Under the pieces are notes generated by a model. That model was not told the DNA's origin. It saw only the letters and a program-made list of their open reading frames with translations, and did no database searches. Shown here one piece after another: positions 52,994 through 63,189 of a DNA stretch of 64,000 nt. Location of the stretch: the NCBI RefSeq assembly GCF_963668385.1, contig NZ_OY764327.1, positions 4,064,501 to 4,128,500 on the forward strand. The letters are read 5' to 3'. The DNA is from an uncultured Carboxylicivirga sp. Lineage in GTDB: Bacteria; Bacteroidota; Bacteroidia; Bacteroidales; Marinilabiliaceae. Each line of letters starts with the position of its first letter. Position 1 is the stretch's first letter. A program made the translations under genes and the position numbers.

Positions 52994-53257
52994 TGCGAAT
53001 TTAGCGATCAAAATAATAAATACATTTTTGTTATGTAGAAAAGCCTAATTCTTACAAAATTGTAGGAATTATCATTGGTAATACAGATTGTGTCAAAGTT
53101 TAACTTGCCGAATATCAGTGTTTCTATAATGGTTTTATAGGGTTTTAGTATACTAGGGTATGCAAATTGCTTTAGGAAAAATAGCGATATAAACTAAAAT
53201 GTATAACGACATTTTGGTAAATCATATTCCTATTTATTCAACCTAGTTAAAACTTTT
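52994..53257. other. Upstream region of the TonB/ABC locus
   Basis: About 260 bp of AT-rich DNA that must hold the promoter and any regulator site of the 53258-63189 operon. No cobalamin riboswitch elements were recognised. No perfect Bacteroidota promoter or clear Fur-like palindrome was found by eye. Confidence 0.5.
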
Positions 53258-53950
53258 ATGATGAAACAGATTCTATTTATTTTTTCAGTATTGGTTCTTT
53301 TTAGTTCATGCGACAGTGATGAAGATTTTAAAGAAATTGTATTGGGTGATTATCCTGTAAAGGAATATTATCTCGAGCGAGATCCAAAAGTAAATGTATG
53401 GGGAGCCGGTTTGGATTTTATTAATGATGAATGTAAAGCTACAGAGACATCTTTAGATTATAAATATATGACTCAAGATGATGCATTCACTTATGATATT
53501 CAATTTTATATAGTAAAAACATACTATTATGATGATAAGGGAGATCTTCACAATCAGGGATGTCCAACTATTTTATTAGCACCGGGTGTCAAAGCTTATA
53601 AAGTAGGTGAGGGTATTGAGTTATTTAATTCTCTTACTACTATTACCGAAGATATGGTTAATGAGTTGGCTACAGAATCAGAAATTGATTTTGCATCCTA
53701 TAAAGATGAAACAACCGGATTTTACGAACAAGAAGCTCTTTATGCTGCTTTGGATAATTGCATTATCGGTCAAACATTCCGAAGTGGAATTTTAGAAGTG
53801 CCGGAAGGAAAGACTGAAGAAGAAGTACAAGCCGTTTATTTGGTTCAAACCTTAGAAGGTGGTTATGCCAAGTTTATGGTAAGAGCATTTAAACCTGCTA
53901 AACCCAATGAAAAGAAAACGCTTGTTCGCTGGCAGGTAATAAGCGAATAA
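53258..53950 (+). CDS. Lipoprotein at the head of the TonB/ABC locus
   Basis: A 230-residue lipoprotein with a signal ending LVLFSSCDSD; acidic residues right after the Cys fit export to the outer membrane or cell surface in Bacteroidota. The mature part is beta-rich (YPVKEYYLERDPKVNVWG, QTLEGGYAKFMVRAF). The last ~40 residues faintly resemble HmuY-type haem-binding lipoproteins, which also precede TonB receptors, but haem ligands were not identified. It lies 71 bases before the receptor gene and probably captures or presents the same ligand. Confidence 0.6.
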   Translation: MMKQILFIFSVLVLFSSCDSDEDFKEIVLGDYPVKEYYLERDPKVNVWGAGLDFINDECKATETSLDYKYMTQDDAFTYDIQFYIVKTYYYDDKGDLHNQGCPTILLAPGVKAYKVGEGIELFNSLTTITEDMVNELATESEIDFASYKDETTGFYEQEALYAALDNCIIGQTFRSGILEVPEGKTEEEVQAVYLVQTLEGGYAKFMVRAFKPAKPNEKKTLVRWQVISE

Positions 53951-54021
53951 AAGAAGTCCTAAAAAATCACACAACTTTTCCTATTCATATTTCAGTATTC
54001 AATTAAGATGCGATTTCTGTA

Positions 54022-56268
54022 ATGTTTCGTTTATTGCTTTTTACATATGGTCTGATGCTGTGTAAGATCGTACTCTGTCAAAATCGGTTGGCAGGTACGG
54101 TTTTTACTAGCGACGATAAAGCTATTCCTTATGCTGTCGTTAGCACACTTATGGGTAATAGCTGTATGTGCGATGCCAGCGGAAATTATCATCTTGAAAT
54201 TACCACTGACGATAACTGTATTCTGGCTTCTGCTTACGGATATAAAACGGATACGCTGTTATTAACGGATGTATCAAATTCGGTTGACTTCAAATTGGAG
54301 TTAATGCGATTTGATATCAATGAAGTAAGAGTGGTTACGCGTCAGAATGTAGAACAAAAAAGCATGGTTTCAGCGGTTTCTATCGGAAAAACAGAGATGG
54401 AACCGCTGAATCCTCAAAATGTATCACAGATACTTCAAAATACACCAGGGTTTACCAATCGCACCGGGTATCAGTCGCCTCTTACGCTCCGTGGTTTTTC
54501 TGGAAAGCGCATACTGGTATTACGTAATGGTAATCGCAGATTCAGTTCTTATCCGGCCGGTGTTATGTCGCACACTATTAATGTTTACGATCTGGAACGA
54601 ATTGAAGTAGAAAAAGGAGCAGCTTCGGTTGTGTATGGTGCAGGAGCCATGGCCGGAATTATTAACCTGGTAGATAAATCACCATTCAAGCAAAAAGGCT
54701 TTAACGGACGTTTTATTACTGGTTATGGATCAGTTAATAATGAGCAAAATTATCTGGCATGTGGAGGATGGAGCGATGGGAAATTTGCCGTAAAAGGAGC
54801 AGTTCGTTATCGTAAAGCAGATGATTTCCGCTTTGCCGATGGATCAATAGCCGAGAATAGTTTTTATCAGGATAACGATGTTTTTATTACTTCCGGATAT
54901 CGTTTTTCAGATGATCATAGCATCGTAGTTTCGTTTGATATGCACAATGGTGGCCCATGGGGTAAACCAGTTGGTTTTAATGGTTCTGATTATATGCGAG
55001 TGCGCACCGAAAAAGAATACACCAATAATTATTCATTAAAATACGAAGGAAGAGATTTAGGATTATTCAGTCATCTGGAATGGAATCTTTTTTATTCTGA
55101 TGAAAGCAGGGAGTTAGTGAAGGATTTCTATACAGCAGCTGGTTACCAATTATCATACACCGAAATCACAAACTTCTCTGATTATAATTATGGGAGTCAT
55201 CTTAAAACAGATATCGATATCAATGAAAAGTTTAAGATAACAGCAGGTGCCGAAGGATATAGTTTTCATATTTCAACGCCTGTTGATGCTGTTGATTACA
55301 TTGAAGAAATCGCCTTTGAAAACAGAGTGTGCAAAGATGCACGGTCATATAATTCAGGCATATATGTGGAAAATAAATATGACCTAACCAAAAATAGCAA
55401 GCTGGTTGGAGGAATCAGATATAATTATTCTGCTGTTTATGAAGGAGAATTGCATCATCCCGAAGAAGATGAACGTCAGGATGAAAAAAGTGCGGTAACA
55501 GGCAACCTGTCAGCCTCGGTTACAACAGGCAAGCGTACAAAGCTTAAAATGAATATTGCCCGATCCTTCCGTTTTCCTGAAGTGTCGGAATTATATGCTG
55601 ATAGCTATACATCCAATGGAGTTGTTTATGGTAATCCTGATTTAACAGCCGAATATTGTTATAGTCTGGATTTGGCTTTTAACTATAAGAAGGAATGGTT
55701 TGGTTTTGAGTTAAGCCCTTTTATCTGGTTTATGGATGATATGATTGCCCGCACAGAATTGAAAGGCATGGTCGGAACTAATTTTACCTATACTAATATT
55801 GGTCAGACACGAATTTTTGGTGGCGAAGCACAATGTAACTTTCATTTTAAAGAGCTTCTAAAAACTAGCGACAAACTTAGTTTATGGCTTGGATTTGCAT
55901 ATCTGAATGGAACAGATATTACCGAATCAGCATCTTTTAAAGAAGGTGAACCACTTGATTTTGTTCCTCCATTTAACTTTAAAGCCAATCTTAATTACCA
56001 GGTTTCTTTTAATGATAAACTAAAGTTGGAGGCTGGTTTTCGTTCTATTTATTATACAGAGCAAAAGCAATTGGGCGAATTTTCGTACGCCACACCATCC
56101 TACTGGATTATGCAAGGAAACCTTGGCGCCACTTATTTGAAATCGACGATCAGACCCAAACTGAATTTATCAGTTAACAACCTTTTTAACAAGGAATATT
56201 ACAGCTATCAGGCATATTTGCCTAGCGAAGGCAGAGATATACGGTTTTTTCTAACTCTTAATTTTTAG
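54022..56268 (+). CDS. TonB-dependent outer-membrane receptor
   Basis: A 748-residue receptor: signal peptide (to ~residue 19), one carboxypeptidase-regulatory-like beta domain (residues ~22-95), plug domain (~105-220) with PQNVSQILQNTPGF, LTLRGFSGKRILVL and EVEKGAASVVYGAGAMAGIIN, then a 22-strand barrel ending in the aromatic C-terminus (RFFLTLNF). It is neither SusC-like (no ~1000 residues, no SusD) nor obviously a siderophore type, and resembles small-chelate receptors such as those for haem, cobalamin or metal complexes. Six bases from the next gene, it supplies the periplasmic ABC importer encoded downstream. Confidence 0.88.
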   Translation: MFRLLLFTYGLMLCKIVLCQNRLAGTVFTSDDKAIPYAVVSTLMGNSCMCDASGNYHLEITTDDNCILASAYGYKTDTLLLTDVSNSVDFKLELMRFDINEVRVVTRQNVEQKSMVSAVSIGKTEMEPLNPQNVSQILQNTPGFTNRTGYQSPLTLRGFSGKRILVLRNGNRRFSSYPAGVMSHTINVYDLERIEVEKGAASVVYGAGAMAGIINLVDKSPFKQKGFNGRFITGYGSVNNEQNYLACGGWSDGKFAVKGAVRYRKADDFRFADGSIAENSFYQDNDVFITSGYRFSDDHSIVVSFDMHNGGPWGKPVGFNGSDYMRVRTEKEYTNNYSLKYEGRDLGLFSHLEWNLFYSDESRELVKDFYTAAGYQLSYTEITNFSDYNYGSHLKTDIDINEKFKITAGAEGYSFHISTPVDAVDYIEEIAFENRVCKDARSYNSGIYVENKYDLTKNSKLVGGIRYNYSAVYEGELHHPEEDERQDEKSAVTGNLSASVTTGKRTKLKMNIARSFRFPEVSELYADSYTSNGVVYGNPDLTAEYCYSLDLAFNYKKEWFGFELSPFIWFMDDMIARTELKGMVGTNFTYTNIGQTRIFGGEAQCNFHFKELLKTSDKLSLWLGFAYLNGTDITESASFKEGEPLDFVPPFNFKANLNYQVSFNDKLKLEAGFRSIYYTEQKQLGEFSYATPSYWIMQGNLGATYLKSTIRPKLNLSVNNLFNKEYYSYQAYLPSEGRDIRFFLTLNF

Positions 56269-56273
56269 CGGTA

Positions 56274-57476
56274 ATGGAGATAAATAAGCACACATTAATA
56301 AATGAATTGTTAGCCGAAGTCCCTGAAGCGATGGAGCAGTTATATCCATATCGCGAACAGATAAAAACGGGCAATACAATTGCAGATTTGGCTCAGACTG
56401 CTAATATCTCATGTTCAGCTTTACTATGCGGACTACAGCGGGTGATAAAAAGGGCCACTTTGGATGCTTGCGATTATGAGGTTATGAAGCGAAAACTGAT
56501 TAAATCTAATGCTGTTAATGTGGCCGGGTATGTTGCTTTTTTATGGCAACATGATTTTGTTGCAGAGATGAAACGAAAAGCTGGGGAGTTAAATATTGAA
56601 TTGAATATTCAGATATTTCAGAAGCATCAGAAAAAACAATTTCAAAACTATCTTGCTTTATGTGAGTCATCTGATGATTTGCCTGATCTATTGATTGGTA
56701 AAGGTTTTAGCTCATTAATGACACATCAATTTGTAGATCGTTTCGTCAATTCAGGTATCTATCAGCACTCACCCGCTTCGACTGATTGGGGAACGGTTTT
56801 CAAAGAATCAAACATAAAAGATGCCGATAATCATTATCATCCATTTGGAGTGGAAGAAATGGTAATGTTGTACGATAAAACGGCTACTTCATCAGTACCT
56901 ATGCCTGAGTGTTGGAGCGATATTTTGGAAGAAAAGTATAAGGATAGCATTATGCAGATGGGAAAGAACAGGCGCGATCATTTTGGATTTAATATGATGC
57001 TGTTTCTATATGCCAATTGGGGAGAAGAAGCTATTAGGAGGTATGCTTCTAATGTAAAGGATAAAAAACATTTTTCAAGCATTATACGCAATGTGGGTTC
57101 TCATCATCAGGATTCTGCTCCATTAAGTGTTGTACATCAGTTTACCAGCTTGTTTGTTCGAAGTGATGTTCGTCAAAATGTTGAAGTAGTAAAAACAAAA
57201 GACGGTAATCCTGTAAGTTGTTATTTCTACTTGGCAAAGAACAATGCCAGTGATGAAACAATGAAGATGGCTGAGCATTTGTATTCACCCCAGGTAAAAT
57301 CAATTATCGAAAAATGTGGATCAACACATATCACATCCAATGAACTTTATTCAGGAGCAAAAACAATCAATTGGATAGGATGGGACAAATTAAAAAGTTT
57401 GCCCATGCCTTTTTTGAAAGAACATCTCAGCGAAATCGCCTACGAACATTACAAGGCTGAGTATACGGAATGTTAA
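56274..57476 (+). CDS. Cytosolic solute-binding-like protein with helical N-terminal domain (A)
   Basis: A 400-residue protein lacking any signal peptide (starts MEINKHTLINELLAEVPEA). Residues 1-65 form a small helical domain similar to DUF1858/ScdA_N-type domains (ELLAEVPEAMEQL, NTIADLAQTANISCSALL). The remaining ~330 residues look like an iron-type ABC solute-binding fold (LPDLLIGKGFSSLMTH, VEEMVMLYDKTA, WSDILEEKYKDSIMQMG). The end WIGWDKLKSLPMPFLKEHLSE matches the paralogue at 60295. A binding protein in the cytosol suggests a ligand carrier or sensor rather than an import receptor. Confidence 0.72.
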   Translation: MEINKHTLINELLAEVPEAMEQLYPYREQIKTGNTIADLAQTANISCSALLCGLQRVIKRATLDACDYEVMKRKLIKSNAVNVAGYVAFLWQHDFVAEMKRKAGELNIELNIQIFQKHQKKQFQNYLALCESSDDLPDLLIGKGFSSLMTHQFVDRFVNSGIYQHSPASTDWGTVFKESNIKDADNHYHPFGVEEMVMLYDKTATSSVPMPECWSDILEEKYKDSIMQMGKNRRDHFGFNMMLFLYANWGEEAIRRYASNVKDKKHFSSIIRNVGSHHQDSAPLSVVHQFTSLFVRSDVRQNVEVVKTKDGNPVSCYFYLAKNNASDETMKMAEHLYSPQVKSIIEKCGSTHITSNELYSGAKTINWIGWDKLKSLPMPFLKEHLSEIAYEHYKAEYTEC

Positions 57477-57502
57477 TAGGTAGAGAATAAAAAACTAAAA
57501 AT

Positions 57503-58492
57503 ATGAGAAATATAATATTGGTCTTAGCAATGTTTTTTTGCACCAGACTTATGGCACGAACCATAACAGATATGGCTGGTCGGCAACTATCAATTCCCGA
57601 TCGGTTGGATCGAGTGTTACCATACGATGCCAAAACTTCCATTTTGTTGTTTTCGGTGGCCAAAAGTATGATGGTAGCACAGGCAAATGTACCTCAAACC
57701 AAGGCTTATTTATTTATTGATGAAGCTTATGGCAACTTGCCAACCGTTGATATAAAAAATGTGGAGGCTGTTTTGTCGGTAAACCCTCAAATTATTATAG
57801 CTGGCACTTATTCTAAAAAAGATGTTTCAAGAATTCAACGCTTGCAGGATCGTACTCATATCCCGGTGGTTATTGTTGATTTATCCATCGATAAACTGGA
57901 TAAGACATATGCTTTTCTGGGTGAGCTTTTTAATAACGAAGATCAATGTAAGCCTTATGTTGAGTATTTACATAAGGTTAATTCATCGGTGAGTGCTGTA
58001 ATGGCGAAAAAGAGTATTGAGGATATCGGAGTTTATTACACCATTGGAGGTTCTGGTTTAATGACTGATCCATCGGGTTCGAAACACACCGAAGTGTTGG
58101 ATTATTTAAAAATCAACAATGTAGCTAAAGTTGATATACCAACCGGAGGGCATGCCAACGTGAATATGGAGCAGGTTTTGGAATGGAATCCTGATGTAAT
58201 ATTTACGGCCGGTTTTAAATCAAATAAAAATGCCTTTAAAGCCATTACAACAAGTAGTTTATGGGCGAATGTATCGGCCGTGAAGAATGATAAAGTTTAT
58301 AAAGTTCCTTCTCAACCTTTCGGATGGTTCGATCATCCACCTTCAATTAATCGTATACCTGGAATTTTGTGGTTATGTCAGATCTTTTATGGCCAGTCGC
58401 CAGAACTAACACAAAAGCAAATATGCGAGTTTTATCAGCTCTTTTATAATTATTCCTTAACGGCCGAAGAGTATCAATCCTTATTTAAATAA
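57503..58492 (+). CDS. Periplasmic ABC substrate-binding protein (BtuF/FepB type)
   Basis: A 329-residue binding protein with a signal peptide (residues 1-18, cleaved near MAR). It has the periplasmic-binding-protein family 2 pattern: ITDMAGRQLSIPDRLDRV, VEAVLSVNPQIIIAGTYS and WNPDVIFTAG in two lobes joined by a long helix. The C-terminal PFGWFDHPPSINRIPGILWL pattern is common in binding proteins of metal-oxyanion, corrinoid or haem importers of anaerobes. It feeds the FecCD permease one base downstream. Confidence 0.85.
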   Translation: MRNIILVLAMFFCTRLMARTITDMAGRQLSIPDRLDRVLPYDAKTSILLFSVAKSMMVAQANVPQTKAYLFIDEAYGNLPTVDIKNVEAVLSVNPQIIIAGTYSKKDVSRIQRLQDRTHIPVVIVDLSIDKLDKTYAFLGELFNNEDQCKPYVEYLHKVNSSVSAVMAKKSIEDIGVYYTIGGSGLMTDPSGSKHTEVLDYLKINNVAKVDIPTGGHANVNMEQVLEWNPDVIFTAGFKSNKNAFKAITTSSLWANVSAVKNDKVYKVPSQPFGWFDHPPSINRIPGILWLCQIFYGQSPELTQKQICEFYQLFYNYSLTAEEYQSLFK

Positions 58493-58493
58493 T

Positions 58494-59507
58494 ATGAGGC
58501 AGCGAAAGATCATATCTACTTTTACATTACTAATTGTGTTTAGTGTGGTTTTAACCTTAGCCTCACTAATGTTAGGTCGCTTTACTGTGACCTTTCATGA
58601 TTTAATGAGTTTTGTAAAAGGAATTTTTGTTGGACAGGATCAGGATTCGTTAAGGATATACACGGTGTTGGTCGATATTAGATTACCTCGTGTATTGGCT
58701 GCTTTTTTAGTGGGAGGTACTTTAGCCGTAACGGGGGCTACCTATCAGGGAATGTTTCGTAACCCAATGGTTTCGCCATCGATATTGGGCGTTTCTGCCG
58801 GATCGGGCTTTGGTGCTGCATTGGCTATTCTTATTGGAATGAATGCTTTTTTTATGCAGACTTTCTCCTTTTTGTTTGGTGTAGGAGCTGTTGCTGCTGT
58901 TTATTTAATTAGTATGGCAACTGGTAAGAAACATGAAAAGTGTCTGACTTTGATTCTTTCGGGGATGATTGTAGCTACGGTGTTTGCTGCTTTAACTTCG
59001 TTGCTAAAATACATTGCTGATCCCGAAGATGCACTTCCTTCAATTGTATATTGGTTGATGGGAGGTTTATCGGATATTCAGTTACCCGATTTGAAGTTTA
59101 TTACTGTTGTATCCATTGCTGGCCTGGTGATGCTATCCTTATCGGGGTGGAAACTGGATATGCTTTCTTTTGGTGATGAAGAGGCACAAACATTAGGTAT
59201 TAACGTAGAACGATTCCGATTTGTTGTTGTTACAGTAGCTACTTTAATGACAGCATCGGCTGTTAGTATTAGTGGTATTATTGGTTGGGTCGGACTGGTT
59301 ATTCCGCATATATCACGCATGTTGGTGGGATCGAAAAACGCGGTATTATTACCGGCTTCCTTTTTTATAGGAGGATTATTTTTACTGATAGTCGATAATT
59401 TTAGTCGCTCTGTCACTAACCTTGAAATCCCTTTGGGTATCACCACATCATTAGTGGGAGCTCCATTTTTCATTTTCATCTTAATAAAAACATCAAAAAA
59501 GCCTTGA
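58494..59507 (+). CDS. FecCD-family ABC permease
   Basis: Inner-membrane permease of 337 residues with about ten transmembrane segments, of the BtuC/FecCD/FhuB type. Family motifs are RLPRVLAAFLVGGTLAVTG near residue 62, FRNPMVSPSILGVSAGSGFG near 92, SISGIIGWVGLVIPHISRML near 260 and IPLGITTSLVGAPFFIFIL at the end. Starts one base after the binding protein stop and ends one base before the ATPase start. It works as a homodimer with the ATPase at 59509. Confidence 0.93.
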   Translation: MRQRKIISTFTLLIVFSVVLTLASLMLGRFTVTFHDLMSFVKGIFVGQDQDSLRIYTVLVDIRLPRVLAAFLVGGTLAVTGATYQGMFRNPMVSPSILGVSAGSGFGAALAILIGMNAFFMQTFSFLFGVGAVAAVYLISMATGKKHEKCLTLILSGMIVATVFAALTSLLKYIADPEDALPSIVYWLMGGLSDIQLPDLKFITVVSIAGLVMLSLSGWKLDMLSFGDEEAQTLGINVERFRFVVVTVATLMTASAVSISGIIGWVGLVIPHISRMLVGSKNAVLLPASFFIGGLFLLIVDNFSRSVTNLEIPLGITTSLVGAPFFIFILIKTSKKP

Positions 59508-59508
59508 T

Positions 59509-60285
59509 ATGATAACACTTTCAAATGTTTGTTGCGGATATGGAAGCAAGCGCGTTCTTTCGGATGTGAATGTTATTTTGAAAGAAGGCGAATTAACCTG
59601 CATATTAGGCAAGAACGGAATAGGAAAAACAACTTTGTTTAAAAGTATATTAGGTTTATTGCCTATATTAGACGGTGAAATAACGTACGACAAAAAATCA
59701 CTTCATCAGTATTCGACAAAAGCCTTGGCACACTTAATAAGCTATGTGCCCCAGGCACACGGAACGCCCTTTCCGTTTTCGGTGTTGGATGTAGTATTGA
59801 TGGGGCAGCATGTGCATACTTCCGGAGTATTTGGCAGGCCAGGTAGAGCCAATGTAAAAAAGGCTTTATCGTGTGTTCAAACTCTAGGGATTGAATATCT
59901 GACACATAAAAGTTTCTCGAAAATCAGTGGTGGCGAAAAGCAAATGGTTCTCATAGCCCGGGCTATGGCTCAGCAACCTCAGTTTATTGCTATGGATGAA
60001 CCTACTGCCAACCTTGATATGGGAAATTGTCAGAAAGTAATGAAGGTTGCTCAGCTGTTGCGAAATCAAGGTTATGGAGTGATTATTAATACTCATTCGC
60101 CCGAGCAGGCTTTACAATATGCCGATAAAGTAATCATGCTTAAAGATGGTAAAATAGCGAGTGTGGGTGCTCCGGATGAGGTATTGAAATCAAAAACATT
60201 GAGCGAATTATACAATACTCCGGTAGAATTAATTGAAGCAAGCACGTCTGCCGGAGAAAAGCGAAAATTAATAGTAACCATATAA
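59509..60285 (+). CDS. ABC importer ATPase (BtuD/FecE type)
   Basis: A 258-residue ATPase with Walker A LGKNGIGKTTLF (~32), Q-loop VPQAHGTPFPF, signature ISGGEKQMVLIARA (~140), Walker B AMDEPTANLD and H-loop NTHSPEQAL. The sequence fits the iron-chelate/cobalamin ATPase subfamily and partners with the permease directly upstream. Nine bases separate it from the next gene. Confidence 0.92.
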   Translation: MITLSNVCCGYGSKRVLSDVNVILKEGELTCILGKNGIGKTTLFKSILGLLPILDGEITYDKKSLHQYSTKALAHLISYVPQAHGTPFPFSVLDVVLMGQHVHTSGVFGRPGRANVKKALSCVQTLGIEYLTHKSFSKISGGEKQMVLIARAMAQQPQFIAMDEPTANLDMGNCQKVMKVAQLLRNQGYGVIINTHSPEQALQYADKVIMLKDGKIASVGAPDEVLKSKTLSELYNTPVELIEASTSAGEKRKLIVTI

Positions 60286-60294
60286 ATCAGATCT

Positions 60295-61491
60295 ATGATT
60301 ACCGGGAATGAAAATCTATTACAAATAGCTGAAGCTTATCCTGAAATTATTAACGAATTTGAAAACCAAGGATTAGGCAACTATTTTAAGACTGATAATT
60401 TGCATAAAATTGGGAAGTTTATCAAACTAAACACTGTATTATCTTCTCACAAAATTGATCCGGTTCTTTTTATAGAATCAATAAATAAGCAACTGGAAAA
60501 TCAAACTGAGCAGGATGTATTAGTTGAAACAGATTTGGGTAGCCTAGATTTTTCGGCCATGTTACCATGTGGACTTCGTAATCCTTTTAAAGAATATTGT
60601 GAGTCTTACTTTGCCAGCTATCCAACTTTATTTAGCGAATTAAAAATGCTAATTGAGGGTAATGTAAATCACGAATTATCCTATTATCCACTTTTGGATA
60701 GTATAGAAGATGTTGATGAATTGCCCGATGTTATTATGGCATCTGATATCAATAATTTCTTTCATAAGCCTTTTGTCGAAAGGTTTATCGAAAAAGGTGC
60801 GTTTGAAGCTTATCAGCCATACGATTTAAATCCTTATCTGGAAAAGGTAGATTATTCCGATCCTTTAGGATATTACACCATGTTTACAGCCAATATGTTG
60901 GTAATGGTTGTGGATAAAAAACAGTTAGGTGATAGGAAAATACCTGAGAAATGGTCGGATTTGCTGGCTCCTGAATTTGAAAATAGCATTATCATGCGCG
61001 GCGAGGATGATTTCTTCTGTAATGCGGTTCTTCTCCCTTTTTATAAAGATAATGGAATGGAAGCTATCGCTAAACTCGCTAAAAATATTGTAAAAGGCAT
61101 GCACCCGGCAGAGATGGTAAAAGATGCCAATAAAAAAGATGGAGGAGAAGCGGCTGTTTACATCATGCCTTGGTTCTTTTCAAAACGAATAAAGAATGAT
61201 GAGGTAGAAGTGGTATGGCCTATTGATGGAGCCATTGCCAGTCCTGTATTTTTGCTGGTAAAAAAAGGAAAAGCTGAAGAAAAAGATGCCTTGTTAAACT
61301 TTCTGATGAGTAAAGAAACAGGCGAGTTATTGCGCGATCGTTTTTTCCCATCCACTCATCCTGATTGCATAAATAATCATTTACACGATGAAGTGAAATG
61401 GTTGGGCTGGGATTTTCTGCGTCAGCACGATGTGGGGCAATTAAAAGACGAGATTAGAACAGAATTTATGAAAGTATGGGTTAATAAATAA
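60295..61491 (+). CDS. Cytosolic solute-binding-like protein with helical N-terminal domain (B)
   Basis: A 398-residue paralogue of the protein at 56274, also without signal peptide. The N-terminal ~70 residues are helical with the same PE...F layout (LLQIAEAYPEIINEFENQGL). The rest is solute-binding-like: ELPDVIMASDINNFFHKP, FTANMLVMVVDKKQ, WSDLLAPEFENSIIMRGEDD and the end VKWLGWDFLRQHD. A Cys in MLPCGLRNPFKEYCESY and a His/Asp-rich segment near the end (STHPDCINNHLHDE) could bind metal. Lies between the importer ATPase and the GTPase, within 10 bases of each. Confidence 0.72.
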   Translation: MITGNENLLQIAEAYPEIINEFENQGLGNYFKTDNLHKIGKFIKLNTVLSSHKIDPVLFIESINKQLENQTEQDVLVETDLGSLDFSAMLPCGLRNPFKEYCESYFASYPTLFSELKMLIEGNVNHELSYYPLLDSIEDVDELPDVIMASDINNFFHKPFVERFIEKGAFEAYQPYDLNPYLEKVDYSDPLGYYTMFTANMLVMVVDKKQLGDRKIPEKWSDLLAPEFENSIIMRGEDDFFCNAVLLPFYKDNGMEAIAKLAKNIVKGMHPAEMVKDANKKDGGEAAVYIMPWFFSKRIKNDEVEVVWPIDGAIASPVFLLVKKGKAEEKDALLNFLMSKETGELLRDRFFPSTHPDCINNHLHDEVKWLGWDFLRQHDVGQLKDEIRTEFMKVWVNK

Positions 61492-61495
61492 GAAT

Positions 61496-62185
61496 ATGGC
61501 AACAAAACTGATTACTGTTTCAGGACCACCATCTTCTGGAAAAACATCGGTGATAATAAAAATGGTTGAGAGTTTACCTCAGTTGAAAGAGAAATGTGGG
61601 GTAATTAAGTTCGATTGCTTAAGTGCATTGGATGAGGAGCAATATGCAAAAAACGGAATTACTACTCAAACCGGATTGGCTGGTAATTTATGTCCTGATC
61701 ATTATTTTGTTTCAAACATCGAATCTTGTTTTGTTTGGGCTCGCGATAAAGGTTTTGAAGTTTTGGTAACCGAAAGTGCCGGACTGTGTAATCGATGTGC
61801 ACCTCACCTAAAAGAAGTACTGGCAGTTTGTGTTTTGGATAATTTAAGCGGTATCAATACTCCACTTAAAACAGGACCTATGGTTAAAATGGCCGATGTG
61901 GTTGTAGTGACAAAAAGCGATTTGGTTTCGCAGGCCGAAAGGGAAGTTTTTCGATTTAAAATACAGCAGGTAAATTCGAAGTGTAGGGTTTTATTTATTA
62001 ATGGTATCACCGGACAGGGAGCTGATCGGTTGGCAAAACTGGTGGTTAATGCCAATGCTTTTGAAACAACCGAAAATCTTAAGTTGCGTTTCTCGATGCC
62101 GGCAGCATTGTGTTCGTATTGCCTTGGTGAGACACGTGTTGGAGAGGATTTTCAGATTGGGTTAAACCGAAAAATTAAGTTGTAG
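61496..62185 (+). CDS. G3E-type (HypB/CobW-like) GTPase with cysteine pairs
   Basis: A 229-residue SIMIBI-class GTPase. P-loop SGPPSSGKTSV (residues ~9-19), GNLCPDHYFVS near 63, ESAGLCNRCAPH near 90 (switch region with CxxC), base-recognition motif VTKSDLV near 138 and NGITGQGADRLAKL near 170. A second CxxC is near the C-terminus (CSYCLGETRVG). HypB, UreG and CobW relatives insert or carry Ni, Co or Zn; the cysteine pairs are consistent with metal handling. This protein is not HypB, UreG or CobW proper: no hyp or ure genes are nearby. Four bases from its upstream neighbour, two from the downstream one. Confidence 0.82.
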   Translation: MATKLITVSGPPSSGKTSVIIKMVESLPQLKEKCGVIKFDCLSALDEEQYAKNGITTQTGLAGNLCPDHYFVSNIESCFVWARDKGFEVLVTESAGLCNRCAPHLKEVLAVCVLDNLSGINTPLKTGPMVKMADVVVVTKSDLVSQAEREVFRFKIQQVNSKCRVLFINGITGQGADRLAKLVVNANAFETTENLKLRFSMPAALCSYCLGETRVGEDFQIGLNRKIKL

Positions 62186-62187
62186 CA

Positions 62188-63189
62188 ATGAGTGATTGTT
62201 TATCAAAATCAATAAAGATACTTCAGAAAGAATATCCGATGGTAGTAGATTTCCTATCATCGTTTAACTTGAAACCAGAAGTTGATAGTAAGAGTTTTAC
62301 TGAGATTGTTAATGAATTACCTGCATCTTATTTCGAAGATCAGGCTACTGATGCAGATCAATTGTTTGAGCTATTCCAAGAGTTTATTAAAGGTTTGGAA
62401 GATACTCAAACGGTACAATCAATTGATAGTTTGGAGGTGTTACCAGGCAAGGATAAAAGCGGAAATTCAGAATCGTGCAACCTGAATTTAATTCCCGGTG
62501 AAATAACTTGTATTGTGGGGCCAACAGGTTCTGGTAAAAGTCGACTATTGGCAGATATTGAATGGCTGGCAAATAAAGATACACCTACCGGAAGAACAGT
62601 TTTGATTAATGGTGAAACAGCCGATGATAGCAAAATTGCACAAATGGGAGGTAAGCTAATAGCTCAGATTACTCAAAATATGAATTTTGTGCTGGATATG
62701 AGTGTAGAAGAATTCCTCAGGATGCATGCTCAAAGTCACTTTATGCTGAATGTGGAAGAAGTGATTACAGAGGTAATCAAACTAGCAAATGATCTTTCGG
62801 GAGAACCATTTCAGCCTGATACACCGGTTACTTTTTTAAGTGGTGGCCAATCCAGAGCCTTGATGATTGCCGATGTGGCTTGTGTTGGTCAGGCTCCCAT
62901 TGTTTTAATTGACGAAATTGAAAATGCTGGAGTAAACAAAAAGAAGTCGCTTGATTTGCTGGTAAAGAAAGATAAAATTGTATTGATGGCTACCCACGAT
63001 CCTCTTTTGATTCTTTTGGCTGATAAAAGAGTGGTGATCAAAAACGGAGGAATGCACAAAGTAATTGAAACCAATTCTATAGAACGCGATTTCTATTCTG
63101 AATTGGAGCAACTTGATAATAAATTACAACTCACAAAAGATTACTTCCGGTATGGGAATGAGTTAAAGAAGGTAGGGGATATTTATTAG
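62188..63189 (+). CDS. Soluble ABC ATPase with helical N-terminal domain
   Basis: A 333-residue cytosolic protein. Residues 1-75 are helical with KILQKEYPMVVDFLSSFNLKP, again like the DUF1858-type domain of the proteins at 56274 and 60295. An ABC ATPase follows with a complete motif set: Walker A VGPTGSGKSRL (~113), signature FLSGGQSRAL (~215), Walker B IVLIDEIENAG (~240, catalytic Glu present) and ATHDPLLILL (H-loop). No transmembrane segments and no own permease. It may load or unload the cytosolic binding proteins, act as a non-transport ABC machine, or serve as second ATPase of the importer. Last gene of the locus. Confidence 0.78.
   Translation: MSDCLSKSIKILQKEYPMVVDFLSSFNLKPEVDSKSFTEIVNELPASYFEDQATDADQLFELFQEFIKGLEDTQTVQSIDSLEVLPGKDKSGNSESCNLNLIPGEITCIVGPTGSGKSRLLADIEWLANKDTPTGRTVLINGETADDSKIAQMGGKLIAQITQNMNFVLDMSVEEFLRMHAQSHFMLNVEEVITEVIKLANDLSGEPFQPDTPVTFLSGGQSRALMIADVACVGQAPIVLIDEIENAGVNKKKSLDLLVKKDKIVLMATHDPLLILLADKRVVIKNGGMHKVIETNSIERDFYSELEQLDNKLQLTKDYFRYGNELKKVGDIY

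Follow-up and report, generated by a model that had tools for sequence, protein, structure and literature searches.

A putative molybdenum-regulated acquisition and handling operon with cytosolic binding-protein-like proteins, a UreG-like GTPase and a soluble ABC ATPase in an uncultured Carboxylicivirga sp.

One of the closest described systems to the locus treated here is MolBCA (HI1470-1472), which we take to be a FecCD-type importer of molybdate and tungstate. The route by which molybdenum (Mo) reaches nitrogenase in anaerobic diazotrophs without NifQ is, to our knowledge, still open, and we know of no described metal-delivery system in which a transport-type binding protein works with a soluble ATP-binding cassette (ABC) ATPase in the cytosol. 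The locus in question occupies positions 53258-63189 of a 64,000-nucleotide stretch (hereafter the window), which corresponds to positions 4064501-4128500 of the single-contig, 6.27-Mb genome of an uncultured Carboxylicivirga sp. It encodes an outer-membrane receptor, a FecCD-type importer, two cytosolic binding-protein-like paralogues, a GTPase and a soluble ABC ATPase. With a probability of roughly two in three, we consider it to be a Mo-regulated acquisition and Mo-handling operon that serves nitrogenase in this genome.

Nine open reading frames (ORFs), all on the plus strand and tightly packed, make up the locus, and the intergenic gaps after position 56268 measure 5, 26, 1, 1, 9, 4 and 2 bases. 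These coordinates agree with the first-pass annotation of the sequence, which had described nine co-directional genes separated by 1-26 bases from 56268 onward. The same annotation had recognized two binding-protein-like paralogues without signal peptides, and both do match SBP_bac_6 and begin without such a peptide, as judged by inspection of their starts; by the same inspection, the protein encoded from 57503 has one. Two modules can be distinguished, namely an import cassette that includes the binding-protein-like protein SBPa (53258-60285) and a cytosolic triad of the second such protein, SBPb, the GTPase and the soluble ABC ATPase (60295-63189). The features are as follows:

53052-53066, no strand assigned, palindromic operator TTACAAAATTGTAGG, 206 bp 5' of the first start codon
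53156-53171, plus strand, weak and uncertain sigma-54-like site GGGTATGCAAATTGCT, score 17.0
53258-53950, plus strand, putative lipoprotein, 230 aa; sole Pfam match HmuY (E 0.12), under the cut-off
54022-56268, plus strand, TonB-dependent outer-membrane receptor, 748 aa; PF00593 (9e-34), PF07715 (1e-19)
56274-57476, plus strand, SBPa, cytosolic binding-protein-like, 400 aa; PF13343, SBP_bac_6 (2.3e-39)
57503-58492, plus strand, periplasmic binding protein of the FecCD importer, 329 aa; PF01497, Peripla_BP_2 (2.8e-20)
58494-59507, plus strand, FecCD-type permease, 337 aa; PF01032 (5.8e-85)
59509-60285, plus strand, importer ABC ATPase, 258 aa; PF00005, ABC_tran (1.8e-28)
60295-61491, plus strand, SBPb, cytosolic binding-protein-like, 398 aa; PF13343 (3.6e-76), DUF1858-like N terminus
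61496-62185, plus strand, HypB/UreG-like GTPase, 229 aa; PF02492, cobW (1.2e-10)
62188-63189, plus strand, soluble ABC ATPase, 333 aa; PF00005 (1.5e-14)

The case for molybdenum starts from the palindrome, which was first noticed in the DNA upstream of the window operon, of the triad of Carboxylicivirga linearis and of nifH; the pattern was derived without the sites at modBC and modE. YTACAN4TGTAGGA has a single exact match in the 64-kb window, the site at 53052. The shorter YTACAN4TGTAGG has seven matches in the whole genome, four of which are intergenic: before modBC (1429715), before modE-porin-modA (3106363), before the window operon (4117552, equivalent to window position 53052) and before nifH (4369500), where a 76-aa ORF with a GTG start that crosses the site is taken as spurious. 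The other three (2429119, 3147547 and 4299267) lie inside ORFs. The operon hence shares its operator with modE and the mod genes of its own genome, as is characteristic of a ModE-type Mo regulon. The mod products themselves are readily recognized (ModA 2.8e-52, ModB 1.1e-68, ModC 1.3e-93), and the ModE match (TIGR00637, 1.5e-25) reaches 89.1 bits, under the cut-off of 98.5. The first-pass annotation had proposed the import of a scarce metal, with several candidates (Fe, Ni, Co, Mo, W, haem or corrinoid); the operator common to modE, modBC and nifH, and the ModA/ModB, ModE-like and molbindin genes that adjoin the triad elsewhere, point to molybdenum. Between its modE and modA genes, this genome has a gene of the Porin_O_P family (2.3e-7; L170, 3959-5140), a possible molybdate porin; two relatives (L175 and L177) have an unclassified gene in the equivalent place.

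The degenerate pattern YTACAN4TGTAR was then counted in 374,747 bases from 25 Bacteroidota Mo, nif or triad loci, giving 28 matches, against 4, 12, 0 and 2 for four control patterns in the same sequence. It occurs within 500 bp of 23 of 26 listed Bacteroidota operon starts, a list that was compiled by hand after the sites had been seen and is favourable to the idea. By class, the site precedes modE in 5/5, modB in 2/2, nifH in 6/7 and triad or import operons in 10/12 cases, the window included; the starts without it are the triads of L057 and L058 and the nifH of genome G610, which has a site with one mismatch. None of the 41 other ORFs in the window carries such a site, and 13 of the 273 other ORFs in the same loci do (ten divergent from a listed operon, two nifN-like and one other). 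The sigma-54-like site, scoring at the 95th percentile of random window stretches, was not used as a promoter, and Rfam and tRNA scans of the 64-kb window gave no match.

A contig scan with the GTPase alignment gave at least 569 confirmed relatives, the best 80 of which were taken as loci and their neighbours counted by tblastn, several loci being cut by contig ends. The 80 loci come from Bacteroidota, Bacillota, Desulfuromonadales and relatives, Deferribacteres, Krumholzibacteria, Gemmatimonadales and methanogens, many of which are presumably anaerobes, so that the triad is widespread across several bacterial phyla and methanogens. Besides the GTPase (80/80), the soluble ABC ATPase was found in 79 and an SBPb-like gene in 67 of these loci; since they were found by the GTPase alone, its pairing with the ABC gene is beyond chance. 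This conservation across phyla supports the idea of the first-pass annotation that import of a scarce metal is followed by a cytosolic stage involving both a GTPase and an ATPase. The FecCD importer or its periplasmic binding protein (PBP) accompanies the triad in 19/80 loci, ModA/ModB in 17, either of these in 32, and nif or anf genes in 9. The proposal of a nine-gene unit holds as regards tight packing; as an indivisible unit it does not. In C. linearis (L054), whose GTPase is 97% identical to that of the window, the triad stands without the six import genes, between an oligopeptidase-like left neighbour and a 192-aa ORF on the right that match the flanks in the window. We therefore regard the triad as the core and the cassette at 53258-60285 as separable from it.

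In the GTPase tree, Methanosarcinaceae form the sister group of the window clade (support 0.907), an indication of gene transfer between methanogens and Bacteroidota. L047 (4367-5836), and also L102 and L118, contain a further, divergent GTPase gene accompanied by an ABC ATPase gene of its own. This GTPase, 41% identical in L047, branches outside the rest of the tree, which was rooted on it, and the two genes form a paralogous pair.

The neighbours of the triad also point to molybdenum. ModA/ModB beside the triad in 17/80 loci compares with about 0.4 expected, assuming a 4-Mb genome with 1.2 ModB genes, and by our own count they recur at about seven separate positions in the GTPase tree. ModB neighbours were counted by tblastn; two ModA neighbours that were checked score as molybdate-binding (TIGR01256, 5e-66 and 2e-55). 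A TOBE plus HTH_1 protein of the ModE type lies beside the triad in L104 and an AnfO protein in L067 (4.7e-64). NifH (L104) and AnfK (L091) reach their cut-offs, NifD (L109) scores 638.2 of the 653.55 bits needed, and CowN was confirmed in one locus, L089. In a Porphyromonas cangingivalis metagenome-assembled genome (MAG; L108) the order is ModA fragment, ModB, ABC ATPase, SBPb, secreted protein, SBPb, lipoprotein, PBP, TonB receptor, GTPase, ABC, molbindin, TrmO and FecCD with its ATPase, the molbindin (TIGR00638, 6.7e-43) directly following the ABC gene. Paludibacter L093 has SBPb, lipoprotein, PBP, receptor, GTPase, ABC, molbindin (TOBE, 3e-35), TrmO and FecCD, without ModA/ModB.

Several other neighbourhoods were observed. 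The Krumholzibacteria and Gemmatimonadales MAGs of L059-L062 have the triad beside ModA/ModB, and the two genomes tested, G715 (L061) and G716 (L059), have neither a nif-family nor a MoaC match; either these MAGs are incomplete or molybdenum has an unrecognized use there. In nine loci of Desulfuromonadales and relatives (L094, L096, L099, L100, L103, L106, L111, L126 and L127) the triad adjoins an 80-aa CxxC protein, c6, and a gene that we take to encode a hybrid-cluster-type protein; no ModA/ModB was found in these nine loci by tblastn. In L051 (genome G005) an SBPa-like gene adjoins H, D and K genes that, read by eye, resemble those of an alternative nitrogenase, AnfK itself being confirmed only in L091.

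The import cassette belongs to the FecCD type, with PF01032, PF00005 and PF01497 above their cut-offs in adjacent genes. It is not recognizable as BtuFCD, as BtuF, BtuC and BtuD score 25.5/234, 202.9/334 and 120.7/281 bits against the curated cut-offs. The first gene product, left unnamed in the first-pass annotation, looks like a lipoprotein from its sequence; in L040, L043, L093 and L108 its relatives stand next to genes for a PBP and a TonB receptor. SBPa is, by inspection, without the Pro-Cys motif of the SBPb type. Matched as a profile against the PDB, the periplasmic protein is nearest to 4pag (2e-75), 4ovk (1e-52) and HI_1472 (3psa, 7e-47). Family scores might suggest uptake of haem or of chelated iron, with the cytosolic proteins supplying iron for Fe-S or nitrogenase cofactor assembly: TonB-hemin is the best NCBIfam model for the receptor, the periplasmic protein is best matched by IsdE, the lipoprotein weakly by HmuY, and ferric-binding proteins are among the nearest folds of SBPb. 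All three scores are nevertheless under their cut-offs (TonB-hemin 164.6/316.85, IsdE 47.8/298.65, HmuY 12.9/27 bits), so Hmu- or Isd-type haem uptake is not recognizable here, and the palindrome common to modE-modA and modBC, along with ModA/ModB and molbindin within the operons of relatives, speaks for a different metal. We consider an iron or haem locus quite unlikely, and taking the substrate from family scores was discarded altogether, the haem, siderophore and B12 models being weak and all under their cut-offs.

Within the triad, SBPb begins with a DUF1858-like region (PF08984, 1.4e-5, under its cut-off) and has the conserved residues C92, H270, G312 and W372 in alignments of its relatives. 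Its predicted structure (mean predicted local distance difference test 90.6) is nearest in fold to FutA1, P5PA, FbpA and AfuA, and its sequence match to the PDB is weak (best 5.6e-7). C92 stands at a helix start after the first strand of the binding domain and H270 directly precedes another helix, positions at which such proteins may often bind their ligands. The soluble ABC ATPase has a nearly invariant Walker A, LSGGQ, Walker B and H-loop (75 sequences) and an N-terminal region of about 80 residues without an assigned family; among the Pfam matches listed (25 of 57 in the family scan) there was neither a family for this region nor a membrane family, and the ORF list of the window operon holds no extra permease gene for it.

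The GTPase has the hallmarks of the G3E family, with Walker A GPPSSGKT, TKSD (TKxD), CPDH and a PF02492 score of 41.7 bits against a cut-off of 20.7; its RecA matches in the PDB are an artefact of repeated domains. C66PDH69, C98xRC101, C112 and C206xxC209 are kept in 99-100% of 79 sequences and C41 (of DC41) in 92%. Among named families, it comes closest to HypB and UreG, and CPDH aligns with the CPH of UreG, which we take to be the metal site of that protein. The GTPase could accordingly be thought a HypB/UreG-type nickel or cobalt chaperone and the locus to serve nickel or cobalt enzymes, all the more as the UreG metal motif is partly kept and c6, the small protein that accompanies some Desulfuromonadales triads, weakly matches HypA (20.3/28.9 bits). 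We hold this to be very improbable: HypB (48.8/121.2 bits) and UreG (29.2/204.2 bits) are far under their equivalog cut-offs, so the protein is not recognized as either, and no Ni/Co family was recognized among the annotated neighbour clusters, most neighbours being unannotated and no genome-wide search for Ni/Co genes having been made.

In the window genome, nifHDKENB are accompanied by nifV-like and NifA-like genes (NifB 1.6e-115; NifA-like 6e-153, 510.4/528.85 bits; NifV-like 1.9e-129, 432.1/462.9 bits), and genome searches found no MoaC and no NifQ. Because nif is present and MoaC was not found, nitrogenase is the sole recognizable Mo user in this genome. Among 45 hand-picked triad genomes, 32 of them from the 80 loci, PF00148 is found in 36 (an upper bound for true nitrogenase, as the family includes nitrogenase-like enzymes), MoaC in 31, either in 40 and NifQ in four. 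In a 163-genome sample of the order of the window genome, the corresponding numbers are 14 for PF00148 and 71 for MoaC. An SBPb match was found in 8/295 genomes of the order, four of them nif-family positive and the other four MoaC positive; this search used one SBPb sequence and divergent ones may be missed.

These links to nif and anf genes might also mean that the triad moves no molybdenum at all and instead builds or repairs an Fe-S or Mo-Fe-S cluster for nitrogenase assembly, as NifQ does in other diazotrophs. The seven conserved cysteines of the GTPase would fit such a role, as would the finding that NifQ was not detected in 41 of the 45 triad genomes. Yet NifQ and the triad occur together in four genomes, triads are found in genomes without a nif-family match, and a binding-protein fold would be an odd choice for the task. 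We therefore judge cluster assembly to be unlikely.

Several observations weigh against a Mo operon serving nitrogenase. The seven genome matches of the palindrome compare with five for the reversed pattern, so the count alone gives no enrichment. Among the 26 Bacteroidota triad or import loci, all fetched (the window, L038-L058, L072, L093, L108 and L114), only ten have the palindrome; site-free ones include the nif-negative, MoaC-positive L046-L049, L050 and L051 (G005), the Chlorobia-like L052 and L053, Paludibacter, Porphyromonas, L072, L114, L041 and L039 (operon start outside the piece). Three of 71 other loci (1.2 Mb) match, sporadically. With these counts the operator is ruled out as a general mark of the triad; it belongs instead to the lineage of the window and to some relatives within Bacteroidales. 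The odds of the Mo reading are left unchanged, because the case rests on sites in the window's own genome. That genome also holds ModA and ModBC, which rules out the FecCD system as its only possible Mo importer, and the nearest solved folds of SBPb bind iron, phosphorylated compounds or polyamines.

The link to nitrogenase has its own counter-evidence. Five of the 45 triad genomes (Fusobacterium vincentii, Peptoniphilus, a Desulfobulbus MAG and two other MAGs) have neither the nif family nor MoaC, and triads in genomes without a nif-family match rule out strict nif dependence. In the 163-genome sample, 12 of the 14 nif-family genomes have no SBPb match; the triad is therefore not needed for nitrogenase in general and, with SBPb in 2/14, is not an accessory wherever nif occurs. 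Perhaps the system is an accessory for Mo-poor or sulfidic places. Across Bacteroidota, all 23 GTPase genomes are nif-family positive against 77/372 others, a correlation that is confounded, as 21 of the 23 come from a single family (f19, presumably Chlorobia), and G201, counted among the 23, has only a 77-residue fragment with a stop; we keep the correlation as weak.

Finally, the triad of F. vincentii adjoins a ZnuA/ABC-3 importer. Its SBPb, GTPase and ABC are 31, 57 and 56% identical to those of the window, on a record filed as a 2.1-Mb plasmid that looks like a chromosome, and in L037 (15174-21846) the genes that come after the triad encode DUF6162, importer proteins of the ZnuA and ABC-3 types and a DUF4198 protein. 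A triad of this type may serve another metal. From here it can be argued that the triad is a general metal-delivery machine driven by nucleoside triphosphates, the partner importer setting the metal (mostly Mo, elsewhere Zn/Mn or another). The partners do vary between ModA/ModB, FecCD and ZnuA/ABC-3, and the GTPases of the nif- and MoaC-free Fusobacterium, Peptoniphilus and Desulfobulbus MAG group in one subclade. The same subclade, however, holds the MoaC-bearing Bacteroidota G522, G665 and G577, and the recurrence of ModA/ModB over the GTPase tree also argues against this reading, so that we find a general machine somewhat unlikely.

For the Mo-regulated operon that we prefer, the gene set, its linkage, the common palindrome and the presence of nif genes are observed; from these we infer the regulator and direction of control, the ligand, the order of transfer and the roles of GTP and ATP as follows. 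A ModE-type regulator at YTACA-N4-TGTAGG would co-regulate the operon with modE-modA, modBC and nifH. The lipoprotein, TonB receptor, periplasmic protein and FecCD permease and ATPase would carry across both membranes a Mo species that probably exceeds the size limit of porins, through chelation or in some other way. Once in the cytosol it would be bound by SBPb (and SBPa); its release or onward transfer, in this genome to FeMo-cofactor assembly, would fall to the soluble ABC ATPase and to the GTPase with its CPDH motif and conserved cysteines. More broadly, it can be speculated, at somewhat less than even odds, that this is an undescribed intracellular Mo pathway of anaerobes, in which Mo, perhaps in a thiolated form, is carried by a cytosolic protein that combines the fold of a periplasmic binding protein with a Cys/His site. 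Loading or unloading for FeMo-cofactor or pterin cofactor synthesis would then be the work of a UreG-like GTPase and a permease-free ABC ATPase, a task performed elsewhere by NifQ. The first-pass annotation had not recognized the locus as a described system, and none was found in the titles and abstract openings of the literature consulted. The locus offers named candidate genes and a control site for Mo supply to nitrogenase without NifQ; if the triad carries Mo, it would be a case of a transport-type binding protein that acts in the cytosol together with a soluble ABC ATPase.

Compared with known systems, the locus resembles each in part. With NifQ it shares the proposed destination, the Mo of FeMo-cofactor, whereas the triad is made of other protein families and NifQ occurs in only four of the 45 triad genomes. 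SBPb has the predicted fold of the ferric-binding proteins FutA and FbpA and differs in being cytosolic (by inspection), in its DUF1858-like N terminus, in the conserved Cys92 and His270 and in its weak sequence match to the PDB. The GTPase has the P-loop and TKxD of UreG and HypB and a CPDH aligned to the UreG CPH, but has extra conserved cysteines, a soluble ABC partner in 79/80 loci and sub-cut-off scores. The ModABC/ModE regulon is linked to the operon by the common palindrome at modE-modA and modBC, and by the ModA/ModB or molbindin genes that share an operon with the triad in some relatives; the window importer is of another transporter class, and its palindrome appears to be unlike the ModE site of E. 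coli. MolBCA, finally, is akin in its FecCD-family permease and in a periplasmic protein related to HI_1472, although that of the window is closer to 4pag, and to this plan the window adds a TonB receptor, a lipoprotein, two cytosolic binding-protein-like proteins, a GTPase and a soluble ABC ATPase.

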